Shown here piece by piece: positions 7,801-29,457 of a stretch of 55,449 nt of DNA; positions within the stretch are counted from its first letter, which is position 1; every line of letters begins with the position of its first letter. Origin of the DNA: a virus; the IMG/VR virus record IMGVR_UViG_3300042564_001643, positions 1 through 55,449 of that record; one strand, given 5' to 3'. Below the pieces are notes generated by a model that was given only the letters and a program-made list of their open reading frames with translations, searched no databases and was not told where the DNA came from. Position numbers and translations under genes: made by a program.

Positions 7801-10800
7801 TCTTGTGTTTCTAGTAATGCATCTAGTTTAGACTTAGCTTCTTTTAATTTAGGACTTAGTCCAGCTAAACCACGTGTTCTGATTAAAGCTTCAAACTTAT
7901 TAATCAATGCAGTATGACTGTTTAAAAGATTTTTCTCATCAGTTGTCAAGTTACCTTTCTTCTGAAGATCAGCTTTTAATCCTTCAAATGTTTTGATGTA
8001 TGTTCTTACTTGCTTAGTAGTAAGGTTTCCAGTGTCTATAGTACTACCGTTGAATAGGAACTCAAAGTCTTCTTGTTCTCCGGATAACTTAGTAGCATAT
8101 TTTAAACGTGCTTGTTTGTTATACTGATCAATCAATTGTGCTGCAGCATCTTCTGTTGCAACAAAATCAGTAAACAAGTTCATTACTTGATCATCAGTCA
8201 TTAACTCAACTTGCTCTGGATCCATTTGATCTAAGACTGTTGTTTGAAATAACTGTTGAAGTTGACTGTATAGCTCTGGCTCTCTACTTTGTATATCTTC
8301 AATAGGAGTACTAGGTAGAATAGCATTATAGCTTTGAGCATTCATTGCTTGTTTTTTAGCAGCATATCTTTCATATACTTCTTCAATCAATGCATCATAC
8401 TTTTCTTTAATAGTTTGTACTTCATCCGGATTAGGAATCATGTCATACTTAAAGCGTACAGCAGCTGTGTAAGGTGTTGTATCTCTTTTGATATTAACTT
8501 CTTCACCTTCAGCATTATCAAACTTTAATGTACCACCATCATTGTAGTATGTAATAGTTTGTCCATCAGCAAAACTTAACTCAATATACTCACCCGGTTG
8601 AACTTCTTTAGCTGCCTCTTTTAATGAAATAGTTTTACCTTTAGCAATCTCAACAGGTGCAATATTTACTCTACCCTCTTCTTTTTCTAATGCATCAATC
8701 TCAGCTTTCATCTTCTTCTGAAGATCATCAATTTCTTTTTGCATTTCAGGATCAAGCTTGTTAGCATTGATACTTTCTTGAATCTGAGATAGTAAAACAA
8801 ATTTCTCTATAATAGAGTAGTACTTATCATTATCAGCAGTGATTACTTTTCCTTTACCATCATAAAATTCTGTAGGTAGTACACCCTCATTAATGTATGC
8901 ATCTAACTGGTCAAGGTCTACATAGATATCCTGGTTAGCTAATGCATTGAGTAAATCATTATGCTCCTTTGCTTTCAACTGAGCCTCAACCATTTGGTCA
9001 AAATACTCTTTTCTATTCTTGTAAACGCGCTCCATCCACTCATTGTTTCTGTTAACAGCGTCTAAGAATCCTTGTGGATTAGATAATACATCTACATGTC
9101 TAGCAAGTAAACGTCCTTGCTCACCAAGTGCATAGTAGTCTTTGAGTTTAGAAAAAGCATTATCCATATCTCTATCAAAGATATGTGAGTCATTATAGTC
9201 TCCTAATAGTTTAAGATATTCTTTATAAGCACTCTCAAGTCCTGAGTTTACTTTGATATCATTCTCTTCTGTTCTCTTACCAATTTTCTTATCTAGTAAT
9301 GCATCAATCTCCTCTTGAGTAACATCTTCAGGATTTTTACCTGTAGCTTCAGCAATATCTTCTCTTGCTGCATCAGCAAATTTATGTCTTTGAGTGTAGC
9401 TATTATATGAACTAAACTTATCAAGATAGTTTTCTAAAGCTTTGATCTTTTTCTTCTTATGCTCATAGTCTTTTTTAGACTGAGGATCCGTCATAGTTTT
9501 TAAACCTTCTACTTCAGATTTAAGAATACCAATCTCAGATCCAATCTTATCTACACTAAATAACATTTGAATGTCATTAGCAGCTACTTTAGCTAGTGCA
9601 GGATCAGCAGTAATAGTATCATAAATACTTGCCATTCTTTGATTTACATCATCAAATGATTGATGTGAAAAAATAGCTTCGCGTTTAGCATATTCCCATG
9701 CACTATTTAAAAGTGCAGCTTTTTCATAGTTAGGGTCTTCTTTATCTATTTTACTAAGGTCAACTGGATTTGGAAACTGTTCATTAACTCTTTTGTATTT
9801 AGCTTCAATGCTTTTAGTTTTTTTAATAATACTGTCAAGCTTAGCTTGATACTTAGCACCTTCACCTTTTTCATATCCAAAAGCTTCTTCAAACTCTTCA
9901 GGTGAATATTGTTTGAATGATTCAAGTTGATCAGTAAATAAATTAAGAGTATTAGTATCTAGTGCTGCGTATACTGCAGAGATAAGTGCTTCATCTTTTT
10001 GATCTTTTCTTTGCATTTCATCTAGGTCTCTTTCAGCATTATCTGCAATACTACCTTGTACACCATAGTTAAATATCTTAGAATCAAATAATGTTTCAGG
10101 ATCAGTTTCTGCTAATAGATTAAGTTTTGCAGCAATACCTTTACCATATGAATTTCTTAACTCAGCATATTTTGCAGATTCTTCTTTATTAAAGTAATGG
10201 TTATAACCATACTGCATAGCTTCAAAGGTCTTATTCATTCCTCCACCAAACATTCCCATAAAGAATCCGGAAGCAAATGTTTCAAAACCTTTACCACTAA
10301 ATTGCTCACCTATTCCATCAGTAAGATAAGCTGACAAACCTTTATTAAATTGATGTGATGCTGCACCTGTTTCTTTATAGTAGTTATGTGTGTAATAGTT
10401 CTCCATTGCCATAGAAATTGCTTCTTGAGCATTTTCCTGAAGTGCTTCAGTAATATTAGTTTTAAAATAACCACCAACACCTTTTAGTGTTTGACGTATA
10501 GGTTGACTTTTAAAGTTCTTAAGTGATGTCATAAGACCATCCTTAACATATTCAAAATTACCCTGAAGTAATCTTTTACTTTTTGCTTCAGCTGTTTCCT
10601 TTACTCCTTTTTCTGCTACTTCTTTATAGATAACTTTACCACCTTTCATTTGTAGTACATCATCTATTTTATTCTTAAAGTAACCACCACCCATAGACTT
10701 TCTACCTAAGATACTTGGGAAAGTAATTTTGTTTGATCCGTAGATTAATGCTGTATTCCACATTACTGTACTCATGCCAGCTTCTGTAGATTTATTTATC

Positions 10801-12005
10801 ATTAATTTTTGTTCCTCATCAGTTGGAGCTTTACCATTTTTATAGTAATAATCTTTATACAGTTTATCATATATAGTATTTTGTACAAAACCTCCCTCAA
10901 GTCTAGCTTCAGATAGTGCAGCATTTAATGCTCTAATATCTCTATGCATACCACCTACTGTTTTCTGAGTAGCTTGCCATGTTCTAGCTAATCCAGTTAG
11001 GTTGTCTTCATTTTTTATAATAGAACCAATAGCTCCAGTTGTTCCTTCAAGTGGATTAAGAAAACTTCCTACACTACTATTAGCAACTTTCTTAGTTGTA
11101 TCCCAAAAACGTCTAGCATTACTTATATTATCTAAACTACGTACAGTGCCATTAACTGCTCTTCCCATATCAACAGCACTATCTAAACCTTTTGCAGCAC
11201 GTAAAATATTTTTACCTGCATTAGCGGTAGTTGCAAATAATACCGGAGCGGCTCCACCTGCAGTTCCTGCTGTTAATAAGATTGCAGCTGCTTCTTCTAA
11301 AGCTACTTCTGTCATGATTCCTGCAGTGTATGCAAAACTCTGAGCAGTGTTTGTAAAGAATCCACTAACACCACCTTTAGTAGATGAGCCAATAGCTGCA
11401 GCTTCTTCATAGAATCTTGCATCATCAAGATCTGCACTAAAATCTCCTGATAACATTTTCACCAAACTCTTTGGTCCAGATACAAAACCTCTTGTAAATA
11501 ATGGAACAAATGAATTAGTTACCATTCTACTAAAGTCATCCCAACCACTAGTCTTAGAATTAAACAGGGCTTCATTATCTCTTAATGGAGAAAATCCAAT
11601 ACTATCAAATTTTTCTTGACCATAAGCAGCATATCTTTTGTAAAATGAATTACCAGATGGACCTGCATCATATGCATATACTCTACTATATTCATTCTTA
11701 TCCTGATTAGCATTTGCTACGGCTTTGAATAGTTTACCATAATCACCTGCAGTAACTGTAGGAGATTTACCTGGAGAATTTGGTGCTTTACCAACTGCAT
11801 TTCTGATCTGACCTGCAGGATGATTTAATGACTCTGCACCAATAGGATTAGGATATGCTTTTGGAGCCGGAAAATTAATCTCAGCATCTCTAAGTGAATC
11901 TCCTTCAAAAGGTTTAAAACTCTGAGTATCTAATGAAGGTCTATTGATACCACCATAATCAGGACCTAGTGAATCTAATCCACTAATTGGAGTCTCATCT
12001 GCCAT
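4872..12005 (-). CDS. Giant virion (cargo) protein with embedded PD-(D/E)XK nuclease motif
   Basis: 2377 residues, the largest complete gene here. N-terminus MADETPISGLDSLG. Residues about 213-265 form an Ala/Gly-rich hydrophobic stretch that could insert in a membrane. Much of the middle and the C-terminal third is charged and helical, probably coiled coil. Around residues 1600-1670 there is a RecB-like PD-(D/E)XK signature: GEID with D1608, then IIDLKTG with D1622 and K1624, then a downstream QQAAYANLL helix. Its start overlaps the end of the upstream 1014-residue gene by 11 bases (ATGGCAGATGA), which suggests translational coupling. Size and place match the cargo proteins found in crAss-like virions and ejected into the cell. 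The nuclease could act on host DNA or on phage DNA ends, or be a structural remnant; the motif is seen, the function is inferred. Confidence 0.85.
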   Translation of the reverse strand: MADETPISGLDSLGPDYGGINRPSLDTQSFKPFEGDSLRDAEINFPAPKAYPNPIGAESLNHPAGQIRNAVGKAPNSPGKSPTVTAGDYGKLFKAVANANQDKNEYSRVYAYDAGPSGNSFYKRYAAYGQEKFDSIGFSPLRDNEALFNSKTSGWDDFSRMVTNSFVPLFTRGFVSGPKSLVKMLSGDFSADLDDARFYEEAAAIGSSTKGGVSGFFTNTAQSFAYTAGIMTEVALEEAAAILLTAGTAGGAAPVLFATTANAGKNILRAAKGLDSAVDMGRAVNGTVRSLDNISNARRFWDTTKKVANSSVGSFLNPLEGTTGAIGSIIKNEDNLTGLARTWQATQKTVGGMHRDIRALNAALSEARLEGGFVQNTIYDKLYKDYYYKNGKAPTDEEQKLMINKSTEAGMSTVMWNTALIYGSNKITFPSILGRKSMGGGYFKNKIDDVLQMKGGKVIYKEVAEKGVKETAEAKSKRLLQGNFEYVKDGLMTSLKNFKSQPIRQTLKGVGGYFKTNITEALQENAQEAISMAMENYYTHNYYKETGAASHQFNKGLSAYLTDGIGEQFSGKGFETFASGFFMGMFGGGMNKTFEAMQYGYNHYFNKEESAKYAELRNSYGKGIAAKLNLLAETDPETLFDSKIFNYGVQGSIADNAERDLDEMQRKDQKDEALISAVYAALDTNTLNLFTDQLESFKQYSPEEFEEAFGYEKGEGAKYQAKLDSIIKKTKSIEAKYKRVNEQFPNPVDLSKIDKEDPNYEKAALLNSAWEYAKREAIFSHQSFDDVNQRMASIYDTITADPALAKVAANDIQMLFSVDKIGSEIGILKSEVEGLKTMTDPQSKKDYEHKKKKIKALENYLDKFSSYNSYTQRHKFADAAREDIAEATGKNPEDVTQEEIDALLDKKIGKRTEENDIKVNSGLESAYKEYLKLLGDYNDSHIFDRDMDNAFSKLKDYYALGEQGRLLARHVDVLSNPQGFLDAVNRNNEWMERVYKNRKEYFDQMVEAQLKAKEHNDLLNALANQDIYVDLDQLDAYINEGVLPTEFYDGKGKVITADNDKYYSIIEKFVLLSQIQESINANKLDPEMQKEIDDLQKKMKAEIDALEKEEGRVNIAPVEIAKGKTISLKEAAKEVQPGEYIELSFADGQTITYYNDGGTLKFDNAEGEEVNIKRDTTPYTAAVRFKYDMIPNPDEVQTIKEKYDALIEEVYERYAAKKQAMNAQSYNAILPSTPIEDIQSREPELYSQLQQLFQTTVLDQMDPEQVELMTDDQVMNLFTDFVATEDAAAQLIDQYNKQARLKYATKLSGEQEDFEFLFNGSTIDTGNLTTKQVRTYIKTFEGLKADLQKKGNLTTDEKNLLNSHTALINKFEALIRTRGLAGLSPKLKEAKSKLDALLETQDKITRDDDRHVYIIDGKEYDSVTRKIAPLKSKQYDYIGKGTLEKEVYKIFGNANLKDGEGRPLSFDAKVNLFIAALKTNNPPGFNSKNYLEVADLLIANQSDTPEELYNRLLAYSLENTFEANRTAGNYIDAQVKNLFEDLPLEFNEENITREAFDNLFSTEVDPKTNLPKGSLAQIKARVDSNELIILSRGLRVYDEELGIAGEIDLIVADQNGNVYIIDLKTGSKDKWDGWVGTDLYKDRKASKDEAVRAKAEYAENKSEDYELQQAAYANLLYRMIGLEVSKVGILPVQLTLNTETGKVNTASKPTSSALKPGTFSIMLDTSKVQDRIDNLIPKVYIDPVTGDEEVPGIKIATALSPEALKKLRALGFSDAMLELMTQAEIEEAKTFNDRDQAKPLLNKYAKLAMEPVLMDDAEIETQIINEMRRDRNGKSIQNRINMLKAREKMASNELSAMNDTLGYLNNLLESSVDLSESEVKRLLDSISTLEKVIKSSSSKKTKRGQSTAAMIANLKSQIRNEFREADVILNTIRNLKYEIELLESLKDDLGNQIDYYNSLIADPNMETLSKYEIEAKIKKIQKKMGTIEKLIAAIKNAIGKSLQYLNEYLKIWKKADAKYNKFMDTTGYEPLSQEKLGELINSTNPEDMERLAEYPELSRQFQGVQNELLKTMDNVEFAEEVKEQENKRLAELNRALDKYTRQIRYLNELISTTADGEVFDPEAKMSDPASGGPMPGSTMNTTATTAQKTQEAEEDLAKDAVTVSKLTFTPDVMADIENELEGKTYSLEEALAAIEALPNMDELRSYRAILRGFQTVGRISAADGAILKAKFEEKIKQLETPESIDMPATSFAVGATVIAKIDIFNKNLLFAGKGTELTVTRVDGSKKMITLKYGNKPHQVSFDEAEEFLTNMEALTNIVPVEATPILDQADKEKVIESNDIADAFIQDPAAVNKAIEEIGDTEASNLKDKLFKNLEC

Positions 12006-15087: not shown

Positions 15088-15105
15088 ATAAACCTATAAA
15101 GTTTA
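15088..15105 (-). repeat. 18-base inverted repeat overlapping the stop of the 901-residue gene
   Basis: The minus strand reads TAAACTTTATAGGTTTAT, beginning with the TAA stop codon. It is the second copy of the element at 21395-21412, with one base changed. No T run follows, so it is not a classic terminator. Confidence 0.6.
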
Positions 15106-17808
15106 GTAGAACATAAATGGGAAGATATTAGAACCCATTACATACATTCCACCATCTTTTGCATTAGCATTATCCATGATTGTTTCAACATCAGGTCCAG
15201 CATATCCAGATGATTGACCCATTGCTATCTTAGCTGCAGCAATTGCATCTTTAGGAGCAAATCCTTGTGTTATATAGCCTTTAAGTAAAGTATCAAAAGT
15301 TTTATTAATCTCTGGTTGTTGTTTTTTACCACCTGTAAACACAACTGTACCTGTTCTAGGATCGATATCATACTGTGGTGCAGTAGCATTAAGTAATGCT
15401 ATATCTCCTGCATTTTTCCATCCAGTTTGGAATGCTTGTCTTTTAATTGAATCAGCTAATCTTCTATCTCTGTCATACGTAGCATTTGTCAATGTTGTCC
15501 CATCTACTAATTGTTTAGTAATAGCTTGATTCATTGCTCTCTCTTGATTTCTAATACCAACATTATTTTGACCAACTTGATTAGCCAACTGTACATTAGC
15601 ATTGTTATATCTAGATAGAACATCTGCTGCTTGTTTAGCACCTTGACCTTGAACTTGTGATGATCTTGATGATAATGCTTGAGGTCCTACAAACTGTGCT
15701 AAACCTTGAGTAAGAATATTTGCTTGCTCAGAGTTTGCTGCTAGTTCTCTTGTAGGATCTAAGTATATTCCTACATTCTCTTCATTATCAACTGGAGCTG
15801 CCCATGGATAATACTTACGTAAAGAAGCTTTATCTTTAAGTGCTCCATAGTAATTATTTAAATCAGGAGTTGTCCACTCAGGTACTGTAACTACAGGAGC
15901 TGTTTCTTCTTCTTCTAGATCAACTAGATCTGGTCTATCAGTTCCTTCACATTCATTACACTCACCCTTTTCATTTTTACCTGGATCATATGTTTTACCA
16001 TTAGCATCTGTACACTGACAAGTTAAAACTTTCTTAATTGTTTTTTCTTGTTTTGCTGCAGGTGTATAATTTAAACGTTGACCCAATGTAGTATTAGTAC
16101 TAGCATTGTCAATCCCTGAAATAGATTCTCTACCTTTTAGTTCATCACTTTTACCAGTTTGTTTAACACCTCTTTGTTTTTCTTCACCACCTTTAATAAC
16201 ATCATCATATGCTAAGTAAGCTGCTTGAGACAAGTAACCTTTATCAAAAGATAAATCGGATAAACCTGGATTATTTGCAATTAAATCAGAAGCTTGTTTA
16301 TTGACTCTTTGACCTTTAGCAGTTGGTTGATCTGTTTCTAATGCATTAAGCCCAAAAGCTTCTAATCTTGCATTTCTTTCTTCTTGTTGTAGCAATGCAT
16401 CTATAACCTCATCTTCTTTACGGTCTTTTAATGCTTGATGCCAGTTACTTTTTTTACCACCAGTATAGTTAGCTTCTTGATCAATTACTTTCTTATATTG
16501 CTCATATACTTTTTTACGGAAATCAGGATCATTCTTAATTGCTTGTTCAGCAGATCTATAAGCTAAATAAGCATCAGTCTTTCCGTTCCATTTTGTATCA
16601 ACTATCTTTTGTTCTTCAGGTGTTAATGCTGCAGTACCTGTACCACCACCAACCTGGTATTTAACACCAGGTTGCTTAGTAGCCAATCCAGGATACCATG
16701 TATTCATTTTTTGAAACTTTCCATCTTTCAAGAATGCATCTTTAGACATACCAGTTGGTGCATTATACCAATCTGCATTTTGCATGGCTTCCATTGCATC
16801 TAACCTTATTCTCTGTTCATCAGTAAGGGCTGGCTTTTCTATTTCAGGTTTATTCATGTTATCTGCAATATATTTATTAAATGCATCAACATTTATACCT
16901 TCTTGAGCTTCAGGCATATAACCACCATAAGCCATATAAGAAGGCATTTCATAACCATACTGAGCCATAGGTTGTTGACCCATAGCTTGTTCCATCATCA
17001 TTGCATCTTCATCAGGCATTTGTTGCATACCAGAGTTATCATAGATGTTTTCTTCTTCAGTAGGATTCTCTGGTGCAGTGCCATTATCAGGAATTTCACC
17101 TGGACCGCCTGCAACACCTGGTGTAGGTTGTTGAGTTTTTGGTTGATACGTAGGCATAATGTCTTCTTCTGAAATTCCATTAGCTTCCATATATGGTTGT
17201 GCTACCATAGGTATACCTTGTGGGAAACCTTTCTTAGCTTCTTGTGCAAGAGCAAGAGCTCCTAACTTCATATTGTAGTTACGGATCATCAACTCTGCAG
17301 TCTTCTTAGCAATTACATCTGTATCAGGATCTTGAAGTATTTTTCTATACTTATTAATATCATACTGCTTAGCTAATTGAGCAGGAGTATAACCTTTAGA
17401 CTTTTTCCCGTCAGCAGAACCCTTACCAAATCTAGACAACATAGCAGGATCTTTAATCAACATAGATCTTGTATCACTGAATATAAATGTATCATCCGGC
17501 AAGTTCAATGGAACTCCACCAGATGAGTGTCTTGGACCTTCAATATTATAGTGTTCTGCAAAGCCATCACCATTGATGTCTCCGTATGCAGTTTCTCCAC
17601 CTTCAGCTTCTAAGTTAGCTTCTTCTCTTGGTACACGTTTAAGTGACTTTTGAAGTTCTATAGGTTTCTTACCCATGTACTGATCAATATCAGCACCACC
17701 CATTGCTGTTGGTTGGATAGCTAATGCACCATTTAATTGTTGACCAGTCTTAACTGTTCTACCTTGTTGAGCTTTAGGAAGCTTCTTTATCTTTACTTTG
17801 TAATACAT
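15103..17808 (-). CDS. Large virion (cargo) protein with AQxG motifs
   Basis: 901 residues. The basic N-terminus contains LPKAQQG (residues 10-16). Residues about 60-130 (including EAEGGETAYGDINGDG, HSSGGVPLNLPDDTFIFSDT) form a conserved-looking domain that I associate with internal virion proteins of Bacteroidetes phages. A Met/Gln-rich low-complexity part follows and leads into GGYMPEAQEG (295-304). A Cys cluster (CQCTDANGK ... CNECEG) lies in the second half, a possible small metal site. The C-terminus is Gln/Asn/Ala-rich and helical. The stop codon lies within an 18-base inverted repeat also found after the 853-residue gene. Probably a packaged or ejected protein; no enzyme motif was seen. 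Confidence 0.8.
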   Translation of the reverse strand: MYYKVKIKKLPKAQQGRTVKTGQQLNGALAIQPTAMGGADIDQYMGKKPIELQKSLKRVPREEANLEAEGGETAYGDINGDGFAEHYNIEGPRHSSGGVPLNLPDDTFIFSDTRSMLIKDPAMLSRFGKGSADGKKSKGYTPAQLAKQYDINKYRKILQDPDTDVIAKKTAELMIRNYNMKLGALALAQEAKKGFPQGIPMVAQPYMEANGISEEDIMPTYQPKTQQPTPGVAGGPGEIPDNGTAPENPTEEENIYDNSGMQQMPDEDAMMMEQAMGQQPMAQYGYEMPSYMAYGGYMPEAQEGINVDAFNKYIADNMNKPEIEKPALTDEQRIRLDAMEAMQNADWYNAPTGMSKDAFLKDGKFQKMNTWYPGLATKQPGVKYQVGGGTGTAALTPEEQKIVDTKWNGKTDAYLAYRSAEQAIKNDPDFRKKVYEQYKKVIDQEANYTGGKKSNWHQALKDRKEDEVIDALLQQEERNARLEAFGLNALETDQPTAKGQRVNKQASDLIANNPGLSDLSFDKGYLSQAAYLAYDDVIKGGEEKQRGVKQTGKSDELKGRESISGIDNASTNTTLGQRLNYTPAAKQEKTIKKVLTCQCTDANGKTYDPGKNEKGECNECEGTDRPDLVDLEEEETAPVVTVPEWTTPDLNNYYGALKDKASLRKYYPWAAPVDNEENVGIYLDPTRELAANSEQANILTQGLAQFVGPQALSSRSSQVQGQGAKQAADVLSRYNNANVQLANQVGQNNVGIRNQERAMNQAITKQLVDGTTLTNATYDRDRRLADSIKRQAFQTGWKNAGDIALLNATAPQYDIDPRTGTVVFTGGKKQQPEINKTFDTLLKGYITQGFAPKDAIAAAKIAMGQSSGYAGPDVETIMDNANAKDGGMYVMGSNIFPFMFY

Positions 17809-17817
17809 AGTTCAAAG

Positions 17818-20800
17818 TTATAAATATTCTAATTCACCACCATCTGCAAGGAATTGATCTATCTCATCCTGCGTCATGTAAGCTTCTTCATCTTGATCAT
17901 ATTCTGGCATAGTGTAACCACCTTCTTGAAGAAAACCACCATTTCTAATAATACCTTTGAATCCCATTTGATCAGGTCTAAATAAACCGGAATTGGTATC
18001 ATAGGTACCACGGTCTTGCAAGTTTGTTGATCCATATAAGTTATCTCCAGTAAGGTTATCATAGAAATTTTGCTGTATTCCTTTATCACCTCTTTCACCT
18101 AGTTTTTGAATACCAAAGTTAGCAAGTGTATTAAACTGATTTACACCTCTTTCAAAATCAACATTATACATGTTTTTGTTTTTGAACTTAGCTGCATAAC
18201 CTTGTCTTTCAATTTCAGGTTCTTTATCTTCTAATCCCCATGATTCTCTAATTTCCGGCTCAACTGATTCCCAAACATCTTTAGATGATTTTGGCTTAAG
18301 TTCTGCCATTGGTTCAATGTCACTTACACCAATCATTCCACTCTGAGCTTGTGGAAGATATCCGCCATATGCCATGGTAGTATTTGGTTTACCTTCACCA
18401 AATTCATAATAATCTGGAAATGAATTACGCTTCTGCATATCAATCATATCTGGATTATATGGAGCATACTCACCAAATTCTGATTTAGGAGCAACACGTG
18501 GTTCCCTATTTAGATTCAGATTCAGTTGATCATTAACAAATGCTCTGATACCTTTTGTTGGAACATCATTAGCTCTTTGATCTGCTGCAGTACTATTATT
18601 ATTAATAGTAGTTTTTTCAGTAGGAGCAAAATTACTAGAAGGATACATTCTTGCACCTACTTGTCTTAATCCAGGAGTTCTCAATAATAAGTCAGCAAGC
18701 TTTTGTCTTCTTGATCCTTGAGCCATTTGATCCTCATTGTCAACATTACTATCTGCTGCCTTACCATCCTTAGTGTCAAATTGACCATAGTTACCAAAAT
18801 ACATAGTATACTCTTTTGGTCTTTTACCAAATAAGCTAGTTTTAGTTACATCAATCTTACTCAATGGTTGGTTACCCATCATAGCAGCATTAACAGGTTT
18901 CCCTGTTCTTGGATCATAAGTCATTCCTTGTTGTTGTGCCCATGAACCAGCATACTCTATTGTTCTACCTGCAGGACCAAACTGTCTTCTTCCTCCAAAC
19001 ACTGGAGGATACATAGCACCCGTTTGTGGATTGTAAGTAGTATTAGACTTAGAACTAGGAATAACTTTAGAATAATCAATACCTTCTCTATACTCACCTA
19101 CATTAACACCAGCAGCTTTAGCTTTATCATAAACTTCTTTATTCTTATCTACTGTAGTTTCATCTACAGTAGTTTCATCAGGATAATAGTCAGCCATCCA
19201 CTGATCATAAGACACAGGGTTTTGTCTAGAGTATCCTTCTGTAACATCATCACCATACATTCTGTCAAGCCAATCTTTGTATTCAGCTTGTTTACTTCCT
19301 CCTGTTTGAAAATATGGATCAGCAGTATTTTCCTCAAATGGTGTAGGTACAGCATCATCTCCACCATATACAAATTTGTATAGACCGGAATCTTCCATAG
19401 TCATACCACCAAACTGTTTCATCTCACCTGTAACATAACGTCCTGATGATTGAAAATTATCATCAAGATATTTCCATTGAGCATTGCTTTTATCTTTTTT
19501 AATAAGAGCAACTGGCTCTTTATTTATATAATGTTGAGCGGTGTCACCTTTAAATTTAGCATATGAACCATCATTCAGTTGTCTATAATAATAACCTGGT
19601 TTCTTTTTAAGTGTTCCTAGTATTGCTCCCTTTGTTCCTTTACCACTTACAGCACTAGTATTTAACTTTGCTAATGTTTTTTTATCTTTTACAGGAAATG
19701 ATTTAGCACCTTCACGAAGTGTACCGTCATCATTGGGTACAGTATAGCTCCAACTTCCACGTTCATCTACACTATAGAGATATGGAGTATTATCTAAGTA
19801 CTGATATTGACCTGCTGTACTAAAAAATTGATTTGGTTTAAACTTCTCAATGTTTTTAATTCTAGTTGGGTCTGTAACTTCAGTCCAAGTTTCATCTTTA
19901 ATTGCTGTATCTGTTTCATAGTTTGAGTTTACATACCATTTATCATTTACTTTTACATAGCCAGCTTTAGGATTACCTGGATTAAATACTACATCCTTAG
20001 TAGTATAATTAATTGCATTATTACTAGATTCAGTTATAGGTTTAGCTTTAGGAGCTACCTCAACTTTAGGTTTTTCTTCAGCTTTAGTAATTTCAGTATT
20101 AGCTTCTGTAGCTCCATTATTAGTGGTACTACTTCCTTGATCCTGAATAGCTTTAGTATCTTCTGCTGTTGTTACTTTAGTTTTTTCAGCTTCAGTCTTT
20201 ACTTCTGCATTTTTTTCTGTTGCTGTATTCTTAGCATCTACCTCAACCTCAGTCCAAATTTCTTTAGCTTTTTCTTGTTGATTGTTTGCTTCTTGTTTAA
20301 CTACATCCTCACGTAACTTAGGATTGTTATAAGCTTCTTGTGCAAAAGTAATACTGTATTCTTTTGGTCTACCAAATAAACCAGTTCTTCTGACATCAAT
20401 ATTAGCAAGTTGTGGACCACCAGCATATGAACCTTGATCAGGCATAATAAATTGTTGAAGTCCCGTCATTGGCATACCCATTCCCATAATATTCATTTGT
20501 GTAGGGAACATTTGAGATCTGTTATTGAACATACCTGCAGGCATTTGACCCATCATGCGGTTTGCTCTTCTGTTCATTCTACGCATTTGTCCTGGACGCA
20601 TACCACCTAACTGCATATAATCTTGATCAGTATCATAACCATAATCAAGATTATTAGTCATATCTTGTGAATACATATCATACATAGCTTCAGCATCTTG
20701 CTTCATTAAAGCTTGATTTGCATGACCTTGTAAACCTGTGATAAAATCACTCAGTCCATTCTTTCTTACACCTGTATCTGTATCATCTGCTTTGTTTGAT

Positions 20801-21351
20801 GTACCGTCCCCACCCATCTGTTTCTTAGTAAGGTTCATTACATTTTTTACAAATGTTCTTTTGTTAGGTAAAGCTCCTCCAAACTTTGCAATAATATTTG
20901 AAGCTACATCTGTATCATCTCCATAGTCTGTAGTATCTTCATTGTCAGTCATCATCTGTTGATAACGTTGCTTTCTTGCTTCATACTCTTGATCAGCTTC
21001 TGCTTGAGCAGTTAGAGCTGCATCTTCCTCAGCAAGTTTATTAGCTTCATAATCTTGACCAGACATTTCTGCATTGCGTTCTTCAGCTTGACTATTAATA
21101 TAATTAACTGCTGACTCAACTAATTGACTTGCTTTTGCTTGATCTACTCCAGCTGAAACTAATTGATTTAATGCATCTTCAGGAGTACCACCTTGCTCAC
21201 CTATAATAGTCATGACAGAACTAATTAGTTGCTCATCACTATATTGAGGTTGCTGTTGTGTACCACCTTCTTGTGCTCTCCATGGAGCAGCAGTTTTCAT
21301 TGAGAATGGATTACTCCCACCTGCTCCATATATTCTTACACGTTTCTTCAT
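17818..21351 (-). CDS. Large virion (cargo) protein with internal duplication and AQxG motifs
   Basis: 1177 residues. PWRAQEGG lies at 23-30 and GGYLPQAQSG at 996-1005. A motif of the form IDVxxTxLFGxxPKEY occurs twice, near residues 318-333 and 833-849, pointing to an internal duplication of the surrounding segment. A Met/Arg/Gly-rich low-complexity region lies near 240-300 and a Lys/Glu/Thr-rich linker near 350-440. The last 21 residues end in MTQDEIDQFLADGGELEYL, like the two related motifs in the 853-residue neighbour. The gene begins after a 58-base AT-rich gap with a leader element resembling that before the 551-residue fibre gene. Placement in the cargo block suggests a virion protein; the biochemical role is unknown. 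Confidence 0.8.
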   Translation of the reverse strand: MKKRVRIYGAGGSNPFSMKTAAPWRAQEGGTQQQPQYSDEQLISSVMTIIGEQGGTPEDALNQLVSAGVDQAKASQLVESAVNYINSQAEERNAEMSGQDYEANKLAEEDAALTAQAEADQEYEARKQRYQQMMTDNEDTTDYGDDTDVASNIIAKFGGALPNKRTFVKNVMNLTKKQMGGDGTSNKADDTDTGVRKNGLSDFITGLQGHANQALMKQDAEAMYDMYSQDMTNNLDYGYDTDQDYMQLGGMRPGQMRRMNRRANRMMGQMPAGMFNNRSQMFPTQMNIMGMGMPMTGLQQFIMPDQGSYAGGPQLANIDVRRTGLFGRPKEYSITFAQEAYNNPKLREDVVKQEANNQQEKAKEIWTEVEVDAKNTATEKNAEVKTEAEKTKVTTAEDTKAIQDQGSSTTNNGATEANTEITKAEEKPKVEVAPKAKPITESSNNAINYTTKDVVFNPGNPKAGYVKVNDKWYVNSNYETDTAIKDETWTEVTDPTRIKNIEKFKPNQFFSTAGQYQYLDNTPYLYSVDERGSWSYTVPNDDGTLREGAKSFPVKDKKTLAKLNTSAVSGKGTKGAILGTLKKKPGYYYRQLNDGSYAKFKGDTAQHYINKEPVALIKKDKSNAQWKYLDDNFQSSGRYVTGEMKQFGGMTMEDSGLYKFVYGGDDAVPTPFEENTADPYFQTGGSKQAEYKDWLDRMYGDDVTEGYSRQNPVSYDQWMADYYPDETTVDETTVDKNKEVYDKAKAAGVNVGEYREGIDYSKVIPSSKSNTTYNPQTGAMYPPVFGGRRQFGPAGRTIEYAGSWAQQQGMTYDPRTGKPVNAAMMGNQPLSKIDVTKTSLFGKRPKEYTMYFGNYGQFDTKDGKAADSNVDNEDQMAQGSRRQKLADLLLRTPGLRQVGARMYPSSNFAPTEKTTINNNSTAADQRANDVPTKGIRAFVNDQLNLNLNREPRVAPKSEFGEYAPYNPDMIDMQKRNSFPDYYEFGEGKPNTTMAYGGYLPQAQSGMIGVSDIEPMAELKPKSSKDVWESVEPEIRESWGLEDKEPEIERQGYAAKFKNKNMYNVDFERGVNQFNTLANFGIQKLGERGDKGIQQNFYDNLTGDNLYGSTNLQDRGTYDTNSGLFRPDQMGFKGIIRNGGFLQEGGYTMPEYDQDEEAYMTQDEIDQFLADGGELEYL

Positions 21352-21358
21352 ACTGTAA

Positions 21359-21393
21359 CTTATATATTAAATATAATAAATTTTGTCTGACTT
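21359..21393 (-). promoter_or_regulatory. AT-rich leader element before the 1177-residue cargo gene
   Basis: The minus strand has AAGTCA, an A-rich stretch, TTATTATATT and AATATATAAG, ending about 8 bases before the ATG. The same order of blocks occurs at 34440-34472. Candidate promoter for a phage or host polymerase. Confidence 0.45.
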
Positions 21394-21394
21394 G

Positions 21395-21412
21395 ATAAAC
21401 TTATAAAGTTTA
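21395..21412 (-). repeat. 18-base inverted repeat overlapping the stop of the 853-residue gene
   Basis: The minus strand reads TAAACTTTATAAGTTTAT, beginning with the TAA stop codon. The arms TAAACTT and AAGTTTA pair around TAT. It is identical in 17 of 18 bases to the copy at 15088-15105. Confidence 0.6.
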
Positions 21413-23971
21413 ATCTAATTCTTCTATATAATAACCTGCATCTCTGTATGCTTGGATTTCTTCATCTGTTAATTCAGTATCTATAGATCCACCATCTTGT
21501 TCTTGCATCATTCCTATGTCAGCACCATATACATAATCACGTAAAGTTTTTCTTCCTTCATTAAGATGTATAGGTCCTAGCTTACCACCTTTAGCATACA
21601 TTGTAGGACCTTCATTAAATCCATAAGCTCTACGTGTATATTCTTCACCAACTTCTCTACCGCTATCTGGATCATAGCCTGGTAAGAAACCAATTGGTCT
21701 TACACCATCTAAGCTAACTGGCTCATATTCTCTTTTTTTTCTGTCTGGTCTAATACGTTTTCCACCGCCATTATCTGGTGGAGTAATTATTTCTATTTCT
21801 CTTTTTGGTCTATCATCATGTACTGGTTGAACATCAGTAGGATCTTCATCAAATGTTTCTTTATCTTTTTTTCTTTGTTCCTCTGCTTTCTCTTGTTTTT
21901 TTAATATGTTCGGAATAAAAGGATAAACTAAATTAGCTTTAACCATTGGAGTCCAACCAACAGGAGTATCACTATAAGGTGCTTCAGCTAATTTTTTTGC
22001 AGGATTCATTGCCAAACTTGCATCAAAACCCATTCTTACTGGTGAATGTCTAAAAGGTTTGATTTCAAATCCTGCATTACCGCCATAGAAACCTGTAGCA
22101 TGACTACCACTTTTATCTGTTCCTGCTGTTGAAACATCACCATATTGAATACTAGGATCAAAGCCTAAACTTCTCACACCTACACCTGCTGTAGGACCTA
22201 CATATCCTTTCCATGCACCGTGTGGCCAGTTTTGTTGATTATATTTCCAATCTTGGTTATTAGCAAACTCAGCTCTAGGGTTTGCCATGATTCCAAAATT
22301 AAGTCCTTGTTGTGGATCATAACCTGCATGAATATCACTATGAACCGTTGGTAAAAAACCAGATTCTACTGGTCTACCTCCGGTATATCTTCCATGATAA
22401 TTAGCTTTTACACTAGGAACAAATTTACCACTATAAGGTAATCCAACATCTAAAGATACATTATGATTATATTTACCTTGATCTTTACCAGGTAATCTTT
22501 TAGTTGCTCCTATTAATAATTCAGGATTATATTCACCAAATACTTTACTTGCTAATGGAGCAGCATTAGCATTAAGACTATAGGGTGACATCCTAAATGT
22601 AACGTTTTTTCCAAATTGTGCTTCTGGTAAATAACCACCTTGTTCAAAAGTATAACTATGTTCTTTATCCCATTCTTGAGCAGCGGCTTTTGCTTCTTGT
22701 TGATTATAGTATTTTTTGTTACCAACTTGCCAAACATGGTGTCCACTTTCTGGTAGCTCATTAGATTTATTATATTCCCATGTATGCTCATTTAACTTTT
22801 CACCATATGGTAATGTAGCTTGTTTACTACCCATATTTTTAAAACTTCCTGAACTAGGATCATAAGCATGTTGCCATTGATCTCTATATCTGAAAGCCAT
22901 GTTAGCTTGTTCTGGTCTAACTTGAGTCGGGAATGTTTGTGGAACTATTTCATTACTTGGTACATCAAATGTTTTTAGAGGTAACAATGGTAACTTTGTA
23001 ACTTCTTCAGATTGTGGTTCAACTTGTGTTTTATTTTTAGTAATTGTTTGACTTGGCTTTTTATTTGTAGAAGTTAATCCTTTAAGTTTTGATGCAGGTA
23101 TACCACTAGTACCATACTTTTTAACTCTTGCCTTTACTTCAGCAGGAGTTAACATATTACCGGGTTTTACAGCAAGAGGATCGTAATAAGGTAATGTTGT
23201 GACCCAACCAGGTAGTTTATCTTTTGCTACAGAAGTTCCTTTTGGTTTATAATTAATAACACCTTGCGGTTTTATGTTTTTGTTATATTCTAAAAGAGGT
23301 GCATACGGGTCTAGTAATTCAGGAACCATATCTAACAGATATAATTTATTTGGATCCTTGTTTGCTTTAATAGTCTTTTTTTTAACATCCATGTATCTAT
23401 TCAACTTATCATCTAAAGCATCATAGTTTAAATGTTGTCTTTGCATGTCTTTTAAAACATTAAAAGTGTTCATATTATCCCATGGACTAATATCTACACT
23501 TCTATAATAAGGTTTTAATTTATCATAATAAGCTTTTTGTCTTAGTGCATTATTATAAACAGATAAGCTATCTGCTTGTGTTGCTACACCTTTCTGAGCT
23601 TTAGTAAGTTCAGGTACTGAGATATCTTCTACAATGTATCCACCCTTTCTATACTCTTCAATCTCAGCATCTGTAAGATCTGCTTCAAAGTAATCTTCAT
23701 CTGTACCTTGAGGAAACTCATCTACATAGTCTGCACCGGGAAATGTATACTCCATACCCGGATACATCATCTGTTCTTGCCCGTTAGAGCCAACACCAAG
23801 TACAGGATAATTTACACCCTGCATTGTAATATTACTACTTGGTATTCTTGTATTCTCTCCAGGATGTTTCCACTGACCCATAGGATCTACAATAATATCT
23901 TTTTTCTTTGCGGGTGCTTTTGCTTTATCCAATCCAGCAGTAGCTCTATTTAATACTTTCTTATTATACAT
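21410..23971 (-). CDS. Large virion (cargo) protein, first gene after the muzzle-type protein
   Basis: 853 residues. Residues 99-117 (LTDAEIEEYRKGGYIVEDI) are echoed by the last 20 or so residues (LTDEEIQAYRDAGYYIEELD). AQxG motifs occur at 120-128 (PELTKAQKG) and 445-454 (GGYLPEAQFG). Residues about 455-690 have alternating Gly, aromatic and polar residues (for example VSLDVGLPYSGKFVPSVKAN, GFYGGNAGFEIKP), a pattern like outer-membrane beta-barrel strands; this is weak and could be any beta-rich fold. A basic, charged segment follows. The ATG overlaps the stop of the muzzle-type gene (TAATG), so the two are translationally coupled. Function unknown; probably virion cargo by context. Confidence 0.8.
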   Translation of the reverse strand: MYNKKVLNRATAGLDKAKAPAKKKDIIVDPMGQWKHPGENTRIPSSNITMQGVNYPVLGVGSNGQEQMMYPGMEYTFPGADYVDEFPQGTDEDYFEADLTDAEIEEYRKGGYIVEDISVPELTKAQKGVATQADSLSVYNNALRQKAYYDKLKPYYRSVDISPWDNMNTFNVLKDMQRQHLNYDALDDKLNRYMDVKKKTIKANKDPNKLYLLDMVPELLDPYAPLLEYNKNIKPQGVINYKPKGTSVAKDKLPGWVTTLPYYDPLAVKPGNMLTPAEVKARVKKYGTSGIPASKLKGLTSTNKKPSQTITKNKTQVEPQSEEVTKLPLLPLKTFDVPSNEIVPQTFPTQVRPEQANMAFRYRDQWQHAYDPSSGSFKNMGSKQATLPYGEKLNEHTWEYNKSNELPESGHHVWQVGNKKYYNQQEAKAAAQEWDKEHSYTFEQGGYLPEAQFGKNVTFRMSPYSLNANAAPLASKVFGEYNPELLIGATKRLPGKDQGKYNHNVSLDVGLPYSGKFVPSVKANYHGRYTGGRPVESGFLPTVHSDIHAGYDPQQGLNFGIMANPRAEFANNQDWKYNQQNWPHGAWKGYVGPTAGVGVRSLGFDPSIQYGDVSTAGTDKSGSHATGFYGGNAGFEIKPFRHSPVRMGFDASLAMNPAKKLAEAPYSDTPVGWTPMVKANLVYPFIPNILKKQEKAEEQRKKDKETFDEDPTDVQPVHDDRPKREIEIITPPDNGGGKRIRPDRKKREYEPVSLDGVRPIGFLPGYDPDSGREVGEEYTRRAYGFNEGPTMYAKGGKLGPIHLNEGRKTLRDYVYGADIGMMQEQDGGSIDTELTDEEIQAYRDAGYYIEELD

Positions 23972-26900
23972 TATCTTGGAGAATAAGTAGATTTGTTATT
24001 GTACATCTTAAGAATCATATTTACATTACCTGATACTTTTCTTGTTAAGTTAACAAAGTTAAGATAATGTCTGAATCTTTTTCTTTGTAGCTCATTCTTA
24101 GTATAATCTAAGTTAAGGCTGTTCAGTACTTTAATATATCCATTAGGTTCTGTATCCCAAATAAATCTTTCATTATATGGGCCAGGTAAAACTGTTGTAC
24201 CAGGAGTTACAGCACCAACTACCGGGTAAGTTGATCCTACAGGGAACTCACCTCTATCTGCAGTTATATCCCAGAACTGATTGAATCTATATTTATTCTC
24301 TTCTTTAGTGAATAAAACATCTATAGAGTTTAAATTAATTATTGGATACTGCTGACTAAGTGTTACATTATTCTTAGGGAATATGTTTAAGTTCAAATAC
24401 CCTGATACTTGTTCAGAATTAAATATGACAGCTTGATCAAAGTTAAAGTCTAATACTTGGAATTGATCAACACAGTTATTAGGTCCTCTTTTGTAACACT
24501 CTAGTATATATTCAGCACTACGCATTGTAGTTACTGTCTGACCTTGTGGCATTGGAAACTCAACTTCAAATGGGTAATCAATTCCATAGTAGTTACAGAA
24601 AGAATCACACACAGAATTATGTTTCCATATACCATTTCCTTTAGTAGTTAAGAATGCATTCTTAGTTGGCATTACCATATTTGGATGCCAGTCATGATGA
24701 GAAATCCAGAACTTACTTTTAGGGTCATAACTAATTGTCCAAGAAGCATCCATAAAGAATGTAGGATCACCTAGTCTAATGTCTGTAACATTATTATATA
24801 AGAACTCATTAGTAGACTCATTATAAGTAATCATGTCTTTAAACTCTGGACGTAGCTTGTAGTCTTTCTTAGTAAAATAAAGTATAGTACTTTGATTATC
24901 ATATATTGTTTGACATCCAATACCGGCTACTGCATTATCTGTATGAGGGTAATCAGGAAAATCAACAAGTAACTTGTATGGAAGGAATTCATTAAACCAC
25001 CATTTCATACCTTCTTGAGATATTTCTGATAAACCACTACCATAAGATATAATCTTACCTTGGTTCTGAGATACATAGAACATCCCTGCAGGAGTTGAAG
25101 CTACAGAACGTGAGTCTTGAGATGAACCATACTCATATGATTTATCTGCAATAACAATACTCTGTGGTGTTTGAGCAAACAAACCTCCATCACCAATAGT
25201 AATCTTAGTACCTGAATCAGTTTCTAATTGATCTACACCTTGGAATACTAAAGGACTAGTATTTTTAAACGTAATGAAGACACCTGTCTTAGCAAAGTTC
25301 TTAACTCCATTAACTTGGTCTTTGAACTCCTTATAGTTATTAGCAAGGAAGATAAACCATGAATCTTTTGCTGATTCAAATTGCTGTGGCAAAGAGTATA
25401 TAATTCTATCTGGGTTGTATGTGTAACACAACTTAGATACATTAGGATTATAATATCTTGACTGTAGATTTCCTTGAGAAAAATACTGAGTAAATAACTT
25501 AGATATACTTAATGAGTAATCATAAGAGTAGTAGTTACCTCTAGTAATATTATCAGGGTTGATATTAAATAAAGAGTTAAGATCAGTAAAGTAATATGGG
25601 CTATAGAATCTTTGATAAGGCTCTGTACCCGGTTCTCTAAAGTCAACAATAACATCACTTTCTACAAAGAAGTCTCTTACTGAAGATGTAGATAAATAAA
25701 AGTATGAGTCTTTAACACCAAATAAACCTGGATAACCATCTGCAATTGGATATGGAATAATATTTAATAATGGGTTTGTATTTGGTACTGCATCTGCATT
25801 CGGACCTGTATACTTATAGTTTACGTTATCTAACTTATAGTAAGCATTAGGTAAACTACCAACACCTGATAATACACTAGGGTTGATGTTTAATATGAAT
25901 TGTGGATTCCAAAGATTACTAGCCTCATATCTTTCAGAGTTCATTTTAAACCTAGGCTCAGGTATAAGTTGTCTAGTAAAGTAATTAAACTCAGTACCGT
26001 CTGGTTGACCATATTGCCAATCATAGAAGAAGAACATAGAATTCTTTTCTGTGTATCTATTCACATATGTATCACCGTTAAATAGTATCCCCGTAGAAGG
26101 AACTAATTTCTGTAGTACTCCAGGATTACCACAAACAGGACCGGCAGTTGGAATAGTATCAGGATCAAATTTAAACTCACATTCTCCAATAGGAATTTGT
26201 TTAATACCATCTAACTGACCATACTGATTTTCTATTCTTACTTTAATCCCTGCATAGTGACTTTCTATATTTCTATTAAACTGAACTGTTTTAGCTTCAC
26301 CACTCCAACCTAATGTTTGAGGTCTATTAGATTGTAACATCTCAGTTCCTAGAGTTACCAATGAATTATCTCCATTTAGTAATGCAGGACCTGTATGAGC
26401 TCCTTGACCATTTACAGTTCTAATGACAACTGTCTTTTGTCTCTTTAAGTTATTAATTCTAAACTGCTGAGTTGTCCCACCTTGAATATAAGGTTTAACA
26501 TTTTGTATATTGTCATTAAGATAGAATGAATCATCAATTCTAAATCTTCTAGTAGTATTACACTGACCCGGTCTAAATACATCATATAAACCATGACCAA
26601 CCATTTGCAGAGCATATTGCCTGTATGGTAATAATGCATAAATCAACTTAAGAGTTATCTCAGCACCTTCAGAAAAATAATGTGCTAACTTAACAACATT
26701 TAAAGGAATTCCTAATGCCGTAGCAAATGAACTACCTTCAATATATTGATATCCACTTAACTCAGTGTTATAGTAAGGAGCTGTATAAGAACCCCCTTTT
26801 CTTAAACCACCATCTTCATTAAATTGATCATAAATATCTGAAAGACTAGTACCACCCACACCTAATGCTTCTTGAAAAGCACCACCTGATAAGTAGTTAT

Positions 26901-29457
26901 TAAAGTCAGTATTATAATCTGACAAATCATTATTGAACTCATCAAGATCTGTTGTACCACCTTGATCTGTTATTTCATATTCATCAGTTGTACCACCATT
27001 ACCACTTAGGTCAGACCAGTTACCTGTAAGAGGTAATGTAACAGGAAAAGTACCACCGCCACCAGTTAATGTACCACTACCACCATCTATAGTTTCTTGC
27101 TCATAGTCAGCTAAGAACTTTCTAGTATATCCTGCACCTGGTTGATTAATAGTACGTTTACCTAATGAAGCAATGATAGCTTCAATAACTCCACCTACCA
27201 TCATCATCCAAATGGACAAGTTAGCAATCAACTTTTGTTGAGGCTGTTTATCCGGTTCAATAAAATACTGTGTACTAGTTCCTGCCAGACTTCCATATAA
27301 CTTCATCTCAACTGTAGATAAGAACGGAGTTCTAAAGTTAGTATCCGGTGAATGAAATGTAGTAATGTTTAATGGCATTTGTGATAAAGTAGGATTGATC
27401 ACAGGAATCGGATTAGGATTACCTCCTGCGGTATAATTTCTATCATATACAATATATGGATCAGCAATACCTGTTACTCCCGGAGGAACAATAGTATTAA
27501 ATGGATGATTAGGATATAATCCTTTTATTGCTGGTCCACCCGCATTACCTTTAATCTTATATGGTCTAAGGTTATTAATCATACCCTTAGCAATAATACT
27601 TTTGTTACCTTCTCTTGAACCTCTTAATATTTCATAACCTACTATACCAGGGATGTCATTACCATCTTGGTCTTTTGGATAAACAATATCTTTAAAATCA
27701 ACACCAAGTATTCTAATATACATTTGAGTAGTTGACGTATCTTTTCTGTAATGTTGTACAACATTAGTAAGGCCTGGATTATTTAATCCATGATCTGGAA
27801 ACTTATGATGTCTAATAGGTTTACCACATAGATTTCTAGGTGAGTTAGGATCTGTTACTCCTGTCCAACAATACTCACTAGGATTCCATATGTCTGGTCT
27901 ATTATCTGGATAAACTTCTGTTGACTCCCAATATCCCATCTGACCACGTCCTACCTCAATACCACCATCAGGTAATACTACTTGTGTAGAACTTGATAAT
28001 GTAGCTGTATTATAAACTTCAAACACTCTTTCATTTGGCCCAAATAAAGTATTGATATCATTAAGTGGGGCAGTCTCATTAACTAATGTTCCTGGATTAC
28101 ATGGAAGTGGGTAATTAGTTTTAGGTGGTCTACCTGGAATATGATATGATGATGACTTATCTCCTGTATCATATACCCAACGGATAAAGAATGAATATAC
28201 TTCATCACGTAAGTAACTTGGTTTGTAACCACCTTTTAAATAATACTCAGCAGGATATTCTACTGAAACCCACTCAACATTAATCAAGTTAGCCAAAGGC
28301 TGATAGTTAAAATCAAACTTAGATGTTGGTCCTACTCTCAATAGATAATTACTCACCTCTACCATCTGATCTGATTTCTCATATACAGGTGTTTGTATAG
28401 GTAATTGTTCTACAGGAATAGCAACTAAATCTTCTTTGATCTGATCAATGTAAACCTTTTGTGTTTTAGTAGAGTAAACACCTATCTGTTTTGCAACAGC
28501 ACCCTGATTAATATTAGCTACTACAACTAAAATAAACTCATCAAAGTTTACTGAGTCAGCAGTGATATCAATTTCAAGTGCACCTTGGGGATCTACATCA
28601 AACCATATAGGTTGAACATTACTAGGTGAGAACCAATCTGTAACCTTCTGACCTTTAATACTATAAGCAATGGTAGCAAAGTAAGAACCATTACGTAGTG
28701 TTCCTCCAGCTTTACCGGCAGATACTTTAAGACAGGGTGTCTCCATTAATCTTGCTAGTCTAATTTTATCACAGTCTAACTCTGTAGTATCTTCACATGT
28801 AATACAACCATCTACAGGATGTCCTGCTGGCCAAACTCCAGGTGAAGTTTCTGACACATTACTTGAGTCAGTACATATTTTTTTCCATCTAACTCCTGGC
28901 CATTGTAACGTATTACCTGCTGGATCCGCATATGTATTATCACCAATCCATTGATATGAGTTAGCAGGCCATGTTTGGGGATCTCCAATATTTAAAAATC
29001 TATCAGGACTATTACCATCAGCCCAATATACTTGCCATGAACAATCTTCTTTTTCCCTAGCCGCACCAGTAATCAAATGCCATTTACTTAAACCTAAACA
29101 TGCATCTTGTACAATAGGTCTGTATCTACATAAGCTTTCTTCAAACAATCCAATCTCTGAACCTGTACTTGGTCCAAAATCATTCTGTCCATGAGCTGCA
29201 GTAAATATTAACCACTTGTCACTATACAAATGTATAGTACCTACTATGTGTTTAGTATCAGGTAATGTTGCTCCGGCTGTTGCACATAAGTAATTTGAAT
29301 CTTCATTTGATAAAGTTCCTAAGTCCCCCTCAACTGTATTGTTCACAGCATTACGCGCATGCGTCCACATCCCATCTTGTACAAAGGATCCGTCAGCATC
29401 TGTATTTAATCCTTTAAGAAAAGAATTAGTTTTATTTTGACTTAAGTTTTGTGCCAT
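23971..29457 (-). CDS. Muzzle-type / tail stabilization protein of crAss-like phages
   Basis: 1828 residues starting MAQNLSQNKTNSFLKGLNTD, followed by a conserved-looking N-terminal region (DGMWTHARNAVNN, LSNEDSN). This start, the great length and the position between the ring-like proteins and the giant cargo genes match what I recall as the tail muzzle (often labelled stabilization) protein of crAss-like phages, which forms the distal end of the tail barrel. The protein is rich in beta-type sequence and aromatic residues. A Gly/Thr/Asp-rich flexible insertion lies near residues 785-850, and a short hydrophobic segment (IWMMMVGGVIEAIIASLG) near 748-765. The gene starts one base after the stop of the upstream ring-like gene and ends overlapping the next start. 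The family call is from memory and structure of the locus, not from a search. Confidence 0.8.
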   Translation of the reverse strand: MAQNLSQNKTNSFLKGLNTDADGSFVQDGMWTHARNAVNNTVEGDLGTLSNEDSNYLCATAGATLPDTKHIVGTIHLYSDKWLIFTAAHGQNDFGPSTGSEIGLFEESLCRYRPIVQDACLGLSKWHLITGAAREKEDCSWQVYWADGNSPDRFLNIGDPQTWPANSYQWIGDNTYADPAGNTLQWPGVRWKKICTDSSNVSETSPGVWPAGHPVDGCITCEDTTELDCDKIRLARLMETPCLKVSAGKAGGTLRNGSYFATIAYSIKGQKVTDWFSPSNVQPIWFDVDPQGALEIDITADSVNFDEFILVVVANINQGAVAKQIGVYSTKTQKVYIDQIKEDLVAIPVEQLPIQTPVYEKSDQMVEVSNYLLRVGPTSKFDFNYQPLANLINVEWVSVEYPAEYYLKGGYKPSYLRDEVYSFFIRWVYDTGDKSSSYHIPGRPPKTNYPLPCNPGTLVNETAPLNDINTLFGPNERVFEVYNTATLSSSTQVVLPDGGIEVGRGQMGYWESTEVYPDNRPDIWNPSEYCWTGVTDPNSPRNLCGKPIRHHKFPDHGLNNPGLTNVVQHYRKDTSTTQMYIRILGVDFKDIVYPKDQDGNDIPGIVGYEILRGSREGNKSIIAKGMINNLRPYKIKGNAGGPAIKGLYPNHPFNTIVPPGVTGIADPYIVYDRNYTAGGNPNPIPVINPTLSQMPLNITTFHSPDTNFRTPFLSTVEMKLYGSLAGTSTQYFIEPDKQPQQKLIANLSIWMMMVGGVIEAIIASLGKRTINQPGAGYTRKFLADYEQETIDGGSGTLTGGGGTFPVTLPLTGNWSDLSGNGGTTDEYEITDQGGTTDLDEFNNDLSDYNTDFNNYLSGGAFQEALGVGGTSLSDIYDQFNEDGGLRKGGSYTAPYYNTELSGYQYIEGSSFATALGIPLNVVKLAHYFSEGAEITLKLIYALLPYRQYALQMVGHGLYDVFRPGQCNTTRRFRIDDSFYLNDNIQNVKPYIQGGTTQQFRINNLKRQKTVVIRTVNGQGAHTGPALLNGDNSLVTLGTEMLQSNRPQTLGWSGEAKTVQFNRNIESHYAGIKVRIENQYGQLDGIKQIPIGECEFKFDPDTIPTAGPVCGNPGVLQKLVPSTGILFNGDTYVNRYTEKNSMFFFYDWQYGQPDGTEFNYFTRQLIPEPRFKMNSERYEASNLWNPQFILNINPSVLSGVGSLPNAYYKLDNVNYKYTGPNADAVPNTNPLLNIIPYPIADGYPGLFGVKDSYFYLSTSSVRDFFVESDVIVDFREPGTEPYQRFYSPYYFTDLNSLFNINPDNITRGNYYSYDYSLSISKLFTQYFSQGNLQSRYYNPNVSKLCYTYNPDRIIYSLPQQFESAKDSWFIFLANNYKEFKDQVNGVKNFAKTGVFITFKNTSPLVFQGVDQLETDSGTKITIGDGGLFAQTPQSIVIADKSYEYGSSQDSRSVASTPAGMFYVSQNQGKIISYGSGLSEISQEGMKWWFNEFLPYKLLVDFPDYPHTDNAVAGIGCQTIYDNQSTILYFTKKDYKLRPEFKDMITYNESTNEFLYNNVTDIRLGDPTFFMDASWTISYDPKSKFWISHHDWHPNMVMPTKNAFLTTKGNGIWKHNSVCDSFCNYYGIDYPFEVEFPMPQGQTVTTMRSAEYILECYKRGPNNCVDQFQVLDFNFDQAVIFNSEQVSGYLNLNIFPKNNVTLSQQYPIINLNSIDVLFTKEENKYRFNQFWDITADRGEFPVGSTYPVVGAVTPGTTVLPGPYNERFIWDTEPNGYIKVLNSLNLDYTKNELQRKRFRHYLNFVNLTRKVSGNVNMILKMYNNKSTYSPR

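Follow-up and report, generated by a model that had tools for sequence, protein, structure and literature searches.

A recurrent short peptide motif in cargo-position and small head-region proteins of a crAss-like phage

Few phages known are as abundant as the crassviruses, which send megadaltons of protein cargo through a narrow tail. Why three adjacent giant proteins that otherwise look dissimilar should carry the same short peptide is the question raised by the window analysed here, a 55,449-nt stretch of viral DNA (IMG/VR record IMGVR_UViG_3300042564_001643) which, judging by its sequence, is a fragment of a crAss-like phage genome. Its minus-strand genes follow the crAss-like order of terminase, portal, scaffold-position protein, capsid, small genes, tail rings, muzzle, large cargo-position genes and giant proteins. 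The original prediction listed seven AQxG sites in the three giants and one small head-region protein, and read them as a common processing site, of the prohead-proteolysis type, or as a packaging/ejection tag.

Motif sites and gene context in the window

The three giants are encoded between the gene of a muzzle-like tail protein (23971–29457, minus strand) and that of a homologue of crAss001 gp47, an RNA-polymerase-associated cargo protein (4872–12005, minus strand), which by gene position is the place of cargo proteins C1 and C2 in crAss001. The muzzle, at the upstream edge of this cargo slot, has a family profile matching gp042 of Cellulophaga phage phi4:1 (E = 1.7e-95) and a protein of Leptolyngbya phage Lbo-JY46 (E = 5.1e-118), while the family profile of the downstream homologue matched crAss001 gp47 with E = 1.8e-32. 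Both flanking proteins lack strong copies of the motif.

All seven predicted sites were recovered in the proteins named, together with an eighth, PMAQYG, that had been overlooked. The 901-aa protein (15103–17808, minus strand, as are all sites below) carries LPKAQQG in an N-terminal tail preceding a conserved domain (residues 10–16, 17761–17781), PMAQYG (residues 280–285, 16954–16971; PMA[QAM]YG in many orthologues) and, in the linker 222–392, MPEAQEG inside GGYMPEAQEG (residues 298–304, 16897–16917). The 1177-aa protein, assigned to the slot by gene position (17818–21351), contains APWRAQEG(G) at residues 22–29 (21265–21288), where several orthologues have KAQxG near residue 27, and LPQAQSG inside GGYLPQAQSG (residues 999–1005, 18337–18357). 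TKAQKG and LPEAQFG, the latter inside GGYLPEAQFG (residues 448–454, 22610–22630), belong to the 853-aa product of the first gene past the muzzle (21410–23971), and RKAQTG to a 179-aa lysine-rich head-region protein. The remaining AQxG matches, VAQYG in a 345-aa and TAQYG in a 542-aa protein, occur without the flanking signature, in keeping with chance.

Expected counts in the window were obtained from 300 composition-preserving shuffles. AQxG occurred seven times in the three giants against 1.29 expected, a number attained in none of the 300 shuffles, and P-x(1,2)-AQxG six times against 0.13. A broader form ([AMY][QAK]xGG, [KR][AMY]QxG or Px(x)AQxG) was counted 18 times in the giants (1.28 expected), 17 times in four small Lys/Gly-rich head-region proteins (0.80 expected; low complexity may lie behind part of this density) and not once in the other 26 late proteins of the window (2.11 expected). 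AQxG alone was not significant in the four small proteins (1 versus 0.29 expected), where the signal is carried by KxQxGG and KKGG-like variants. Since the four-residue core is not invariant among orthologues, which vary it as LPKARTG, LPQAKTG, YQxGG or MDKGG, AQxG is one frequent variant within a wider motif. The recurrence is real, and larger than first described.

The small proteins are encoded side by side on the minus strand. The 179-aa protein (41508–42047) adds MMQKGG, MKKGG and MAKGG copies to its PLRKAQTG (41958–41981); a 128-aa Lys/Gly-rich protein (42053–42439) has KMAKGG, KMQTGG, KYSKGG and FKKGG; a 140-aa protein (42452–42874) combines a DUF6321 domain with one KMKKGG; and a 248-aa Lys/Gly-rich protein (42876–43622) carries several copies (KAMYGK, KKMQKGG, KTGGMVNSN). 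The C-terminal domain of the 179-aa protein (residues 131–179, HPGF...NPRLKRVKG) also occurs in Agrobacterium jumbo phage Atu_ph07 and a Bradyrhizobium phage. A further small head-region family (F074) resembles a DUF5872 domain by eye.

Distribution in relatives and distant phages

A capsid search provided relatives (best 80 of at least 600 IMG/VR stretches, capsid protein 90–98% identical), and contigs of 16 relatives together with the window gave 17 genomes, in which ORFs were called mechanically. On the late strand of the 17 genomes [LMIV]PxAQxG was found 32 times against approximately one expected, four of the 32 coming from the window that supplied the pattern; such observed-to-expected ratios are not p values, because the shuffles preserve composition but not low complexity and the relatives are not independent. 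Cargo-slot genes, lying directly past the muzzle in the C1/C2 place of crAss001, accounted for 22 copies and small genes past the major capsid gene (the head slot) for nine (0.0 expected in each), leaving one elsewhere and none in the 755 early-strand ORFs.

Iterating a position matrix from these sites widened the motif to approximately K-[KP]-K-[AMY]-[QAK]-x-G-G, with the conserved residues mainly upstream of GG. Across the 17 genomes the matrix matched 34 times in the cargo slot (0.2 expected) and 116 times in the head slot (9.5 expected), the fixed patterns being the cleaner test because the matrix was trained on the same data. Six matches elsewhere fell in small lysine-rich ORFs, and neither matrix nor strong copies were present in the terminase, portal, scaffold-position, capsid, tail, giant RNA-polymerase-region or early proteins of these genomes. 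The motif is thus restricted to certain protein classes and conserved in relatives, rather than equally common in non-virion proteins, and so does not show the two sequence patterns that the original prediction named as refuting it.

The capsid protein of Lbo-JY46 is only 29% identical to that of the window. Its third cargo gene has LPKAQIG at residue 8 and begins with MKIRIIGLPKAQIG, in the equivalent place to MYYKVKIKKLPKAQQG of the window. This phage (PP438436; L229 and L235 in our set) is a crAss-like relative, though recorded from a cyanobacterium, and in reality may infect a bacterium associated with it. The whole genome of phi4:1 gave eight motif hits (2.4 expected), six of them in gp040 and gp041, cargo-slot proteins annotated from virion MS/MS; gp040, whose sites include YQNGG, FQIGG and FQSGG, had five hits against 0.19 expected, and gp041 carries YAQAGG between two HExxH sites. 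The strong site was absent from the 49 kb of crAss001 examined, whose gp45 and gp46 have been detected in virions in a structure paper that makes no mention of cleavage or proteolysis (PMC10172136).

Linker position, boundary box and exchanged modules

The AlphaFold model of the 901-aa protein (mean pLDDT 59) alternates more confident regions (residues ~50–220, 393–542 and 643–865) with motif-bearing segments below 50. All six motif copies tested lay in such segments, low pLDDT being partly due to shallow alignments, and the model places these copies in predicted disordered linkers. Position, fold matches and pLDDT profile mark this protein as C1-like. A BFVD fold search returned six matches (E = 6.7e-7 to 8.6e-4), including a phi4:1 structural (virion) protein (E = 2.3e-5) and a crAss 'Cargo protein 1 compact domain' protein (E = 8.6e-4), with low TM-scores (0.10–0.17) that reflect a model made of flexible segments in a row; a PDB search gave no match below E = 5. 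The C1 fold comparison covers the 901-aa protein only, and no significant family was found for any of the window's own three giants.

In the 853-aa protein, the N-terminal part is common to many relatives and the rest is variable. Its model places the motif at residue 124, just past the single confident domain, and is uninformative elsewhere. Residues ~450–700 (21410–22654, minus strand) have the look of an outer-membrane beta-barrel by eye; this candidate was dropped, the model being too poor (mean pLDDT 44) and the region without detected relatives. Two other candidate functions were discarded, AT-hook-like DNA binding by inspection (the giant-protein copies sit in acidic or neutral contexts) and an LPxTG-like sortase signal by its different motif spacing.

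The first cargo gene of relatives contains a conserved box of ~30 residues, LTxEEIxEYxKGGYIVEDISxPxLxxAQxGG, which is often motif-terminated and, in the 17 genomes, confined to genes past the muzzle. Its core, LTxEEIxEYxKGGYIVEDISxPxL, either precedes the motif or ends the protein; both arrangements occur in the 853-aa protein, as LTDAEIEEYRKGGYIVEDISVPELTKAQKG with the motif at its end (residues 99–128, 23588–23677, minus strand) and as the C-terminal copy LTDEEIQAYRDAGYYIEELD (21413–21472, minus strand). An independent IMG/VR DNA search for the core found 35 places, with an [AMYF]xxG element immediately behind it in 27. For 35 of the homology ends between cargo proteins, a motif lay no more than 10 residues away (17.1 ± 3.9 expected); homology starts showed no enrichment at motifs.

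Past the conserved N-terminal part, the first cargo gene is mosaic across relatives. Modules flanking the box include peptidoglycan hydrolases, metallopeptidases and SET-like domains, and some cargo proteins of relatives have HExxH modules. Pfam identified SET and a DUF6782 metallopeptidase in one relative (L110) and DUF5872 in another (L122), and a lysozyme module fell below the Pfam cut-off in a third (L105). Two further observations concern individual relatives: a SET-domain-like N-terminal module (residues ~50–127) in the first cargo gene of L110, L113 and L125, and, in a relative of the 901-aa protein (L001), an insertion at the linker with the motif that resembles lysozyme by eye.

Such mosaicism, the linker position and the drifting core (AQxG, YQxGG, MDKGG) could all be accommodated if the motif were a neutral Gln/Gly-rich flexible spacer with no specific partner, spread by module shuffling and recombination of cargo genes. 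We consider this improbable, as LPKAQ and KKMQxGG turn up at corresponding positions, far above composition, both in families unrelated to one another and in distant phages, and early, tail and giant proteins lack the motif.

Cutting or tagging of packaged cargo

Both roles first proposed, processing at a shared site or tagging for packaging/ejection, fit a motif shared by dissimilar proteins because it is non-random, conserved and nearly confined to two groups of actual or probable virion-cargo genes; the specific suggestion of prohead-type proteolysis fared badly. Prohead proteases usually cut shell or scaffold proteins as well. Here the capsid, portal, scaffold-position and tail proteins have no strong copy, an S78 prohead protease was found in none of the 16 relatives while control genomes were positive, and no canonical prohead protease emerged when most of the proteins from one relative were scanned against Pfam. 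The internal head proteins of SPN3US are likewise marked by a short motif, AXE, at which they are cut (PMC10052503), but its sequence is different, and with shell proteins free of strong copies and no S78-type enzyme found in the 16 relatives, a classical prohead-protease site used throughout the head, as T4 and SPN3US have, is very improbable in this group.

Other proteases were sought. A search for C48 (SUMO-type, GG-cutting) enzymes gave no match in relatives or in control genomes and is uninformative. Proteins at 46389–47651, in the portal–capsid interval, and at 43642–44658, past the capsid, were rejected as candidates, neither having a useful Pfam, PHROG or PDB profile match; the Cys, His and Asn residues invariant in the latter among close relatives are lost in the distant Lbo-JY46 relative. 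A zincin-like HEAWH (~2237–2251) is encoded in a giant late protein of family F003, of which the window holds the N-terminal 1622 residues (2–4867, minus strand). This site, at present a candidate protease only, is kept in 16 of 16 members examined, and its region is related to residues 2150–2234 of crAss001 gp47 (E = 1.9e-12), a protein detected in virions (PMC10172136). The vRNAP of phage N4, also with a zincin-type domain, is packaged unprocessed.

The large modular motif proteins are probably packed inside the particle and ejected into the host, and the motif probably marks a place of cargo recognition or cutting, because cargo linkers and small lysine-rich proteins have it and shell, tail and early proteins do not. 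One far-reaching reading, rated just short of an even chance, is a dedicated crass-like cargo peptide code, in which one phage factor would read [LV]PKAQxG/KxQxGG both in the modular proteins that are ejected and in the small basic proteins of the head, and would process or load them without a classical prohead protease. Our best explanation, rated at rather under even, takes the peptide as a linker signature of packaged cargo in this phage group; the computation itself establishes the motif, its class restriction and conservation and, in one modelled protein, its linker position.

On this explanation, a single phage factor would recognise all motif proteins at the motif sequence, and cutting of the linkers at it might take place either while the head is assembled or once the cargo has been ejected; large cargo would then fit through the narrow tail and its modules come apart. 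The best candidate for the cutting enzyme would be the conserved zincin of the giant late protein, perhaps co-packaged. Cutting, a possibility we rate at rather under even, is favoured because linkers lie at module joints, copies are many, conserved residues are mainly upstream of GG and internal head proteins offer precedents (PMC10052503, PMC12810830, PMC5512222). Against it stand the lack of a strong site in crAss001 and the silence of its structure paper on cleavage, the unprocessed N4 vRNAP, C-terminal box copies that need no cut, and homology starts unenriched at motifs.

Alternatively, a head or portal component may bind the motif without cutting, so that cargo and the small basic proteins would collect near the portal vertex while the particle assembles, with multiple copies providing avidity. 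T4 capsid-targeting sequences are a general precedent for such a tag, which is equally consistent with restriction to the cargo and head slots and agrees with the high copy number in small basic proteins, the C-terminal box copies and the copies within the first 30 residues (15 of 59 cargo-slot and 13 of 107 head-slot ORFs). Most copies are internal, however, often deep within proteins at module joints instead of ends, and crAss001 packs cargo without the strong form; overall, we regard uncut tagging as rather unlikely.

Comparison with known systems places the proposed linker code in context. As with the Crassvirales C1/C2 proteins (crAss001 gp45 and gp46; PMC10172136), the genes lie directly past the muzzle and before the gp47 homologue, and the products are large and partly disordered, the 901-aa protein matching C1 folds; unlike crAss001, which has no strong copies, three adjacent proteins share a motif here, with module swapping in relatives. 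In polyvalent proteins of phages and conjugative elements, HExxH metallopeptidase domains are thought to release parts (Iyer 2017, PMC5512222). They are large mosaics encoded close to late virion genes, with exchangeable enzyme modules, a make-up seen here in some cargo proteins of relatives, HExxH modules included, whereas here a linker peptide and box extend across separate genes, the motif is also present in small basic head-region proteins and the conserved zincin sits in another protein. The Dar proteins of P1 are internal and co-ejected with DNA, DarA shedding an N-terminal piece during assembly (PMC12810830). Dar proteins differ in being cut by the P1 prohead protease Pro and are not known to share a linker motif. 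No description of the motif was found in the literature searched, cargo literature included, most subscription papers lying outside its scope. We file these proteins as probable crassvirus cargo proteins of a putative polyvalent type, with a proposed shared linker code.

A motif of the cargo class makes cargo predictable from sequence. It ties together two gene slots whose products probably cooperate, those of uncharacterised small basic head genes among them, and it gives exact residues for study in relatives available in culture, for example Cellulophaga phage phi4:1. If the peptide code is true, any module joined to the box would become deliverable.
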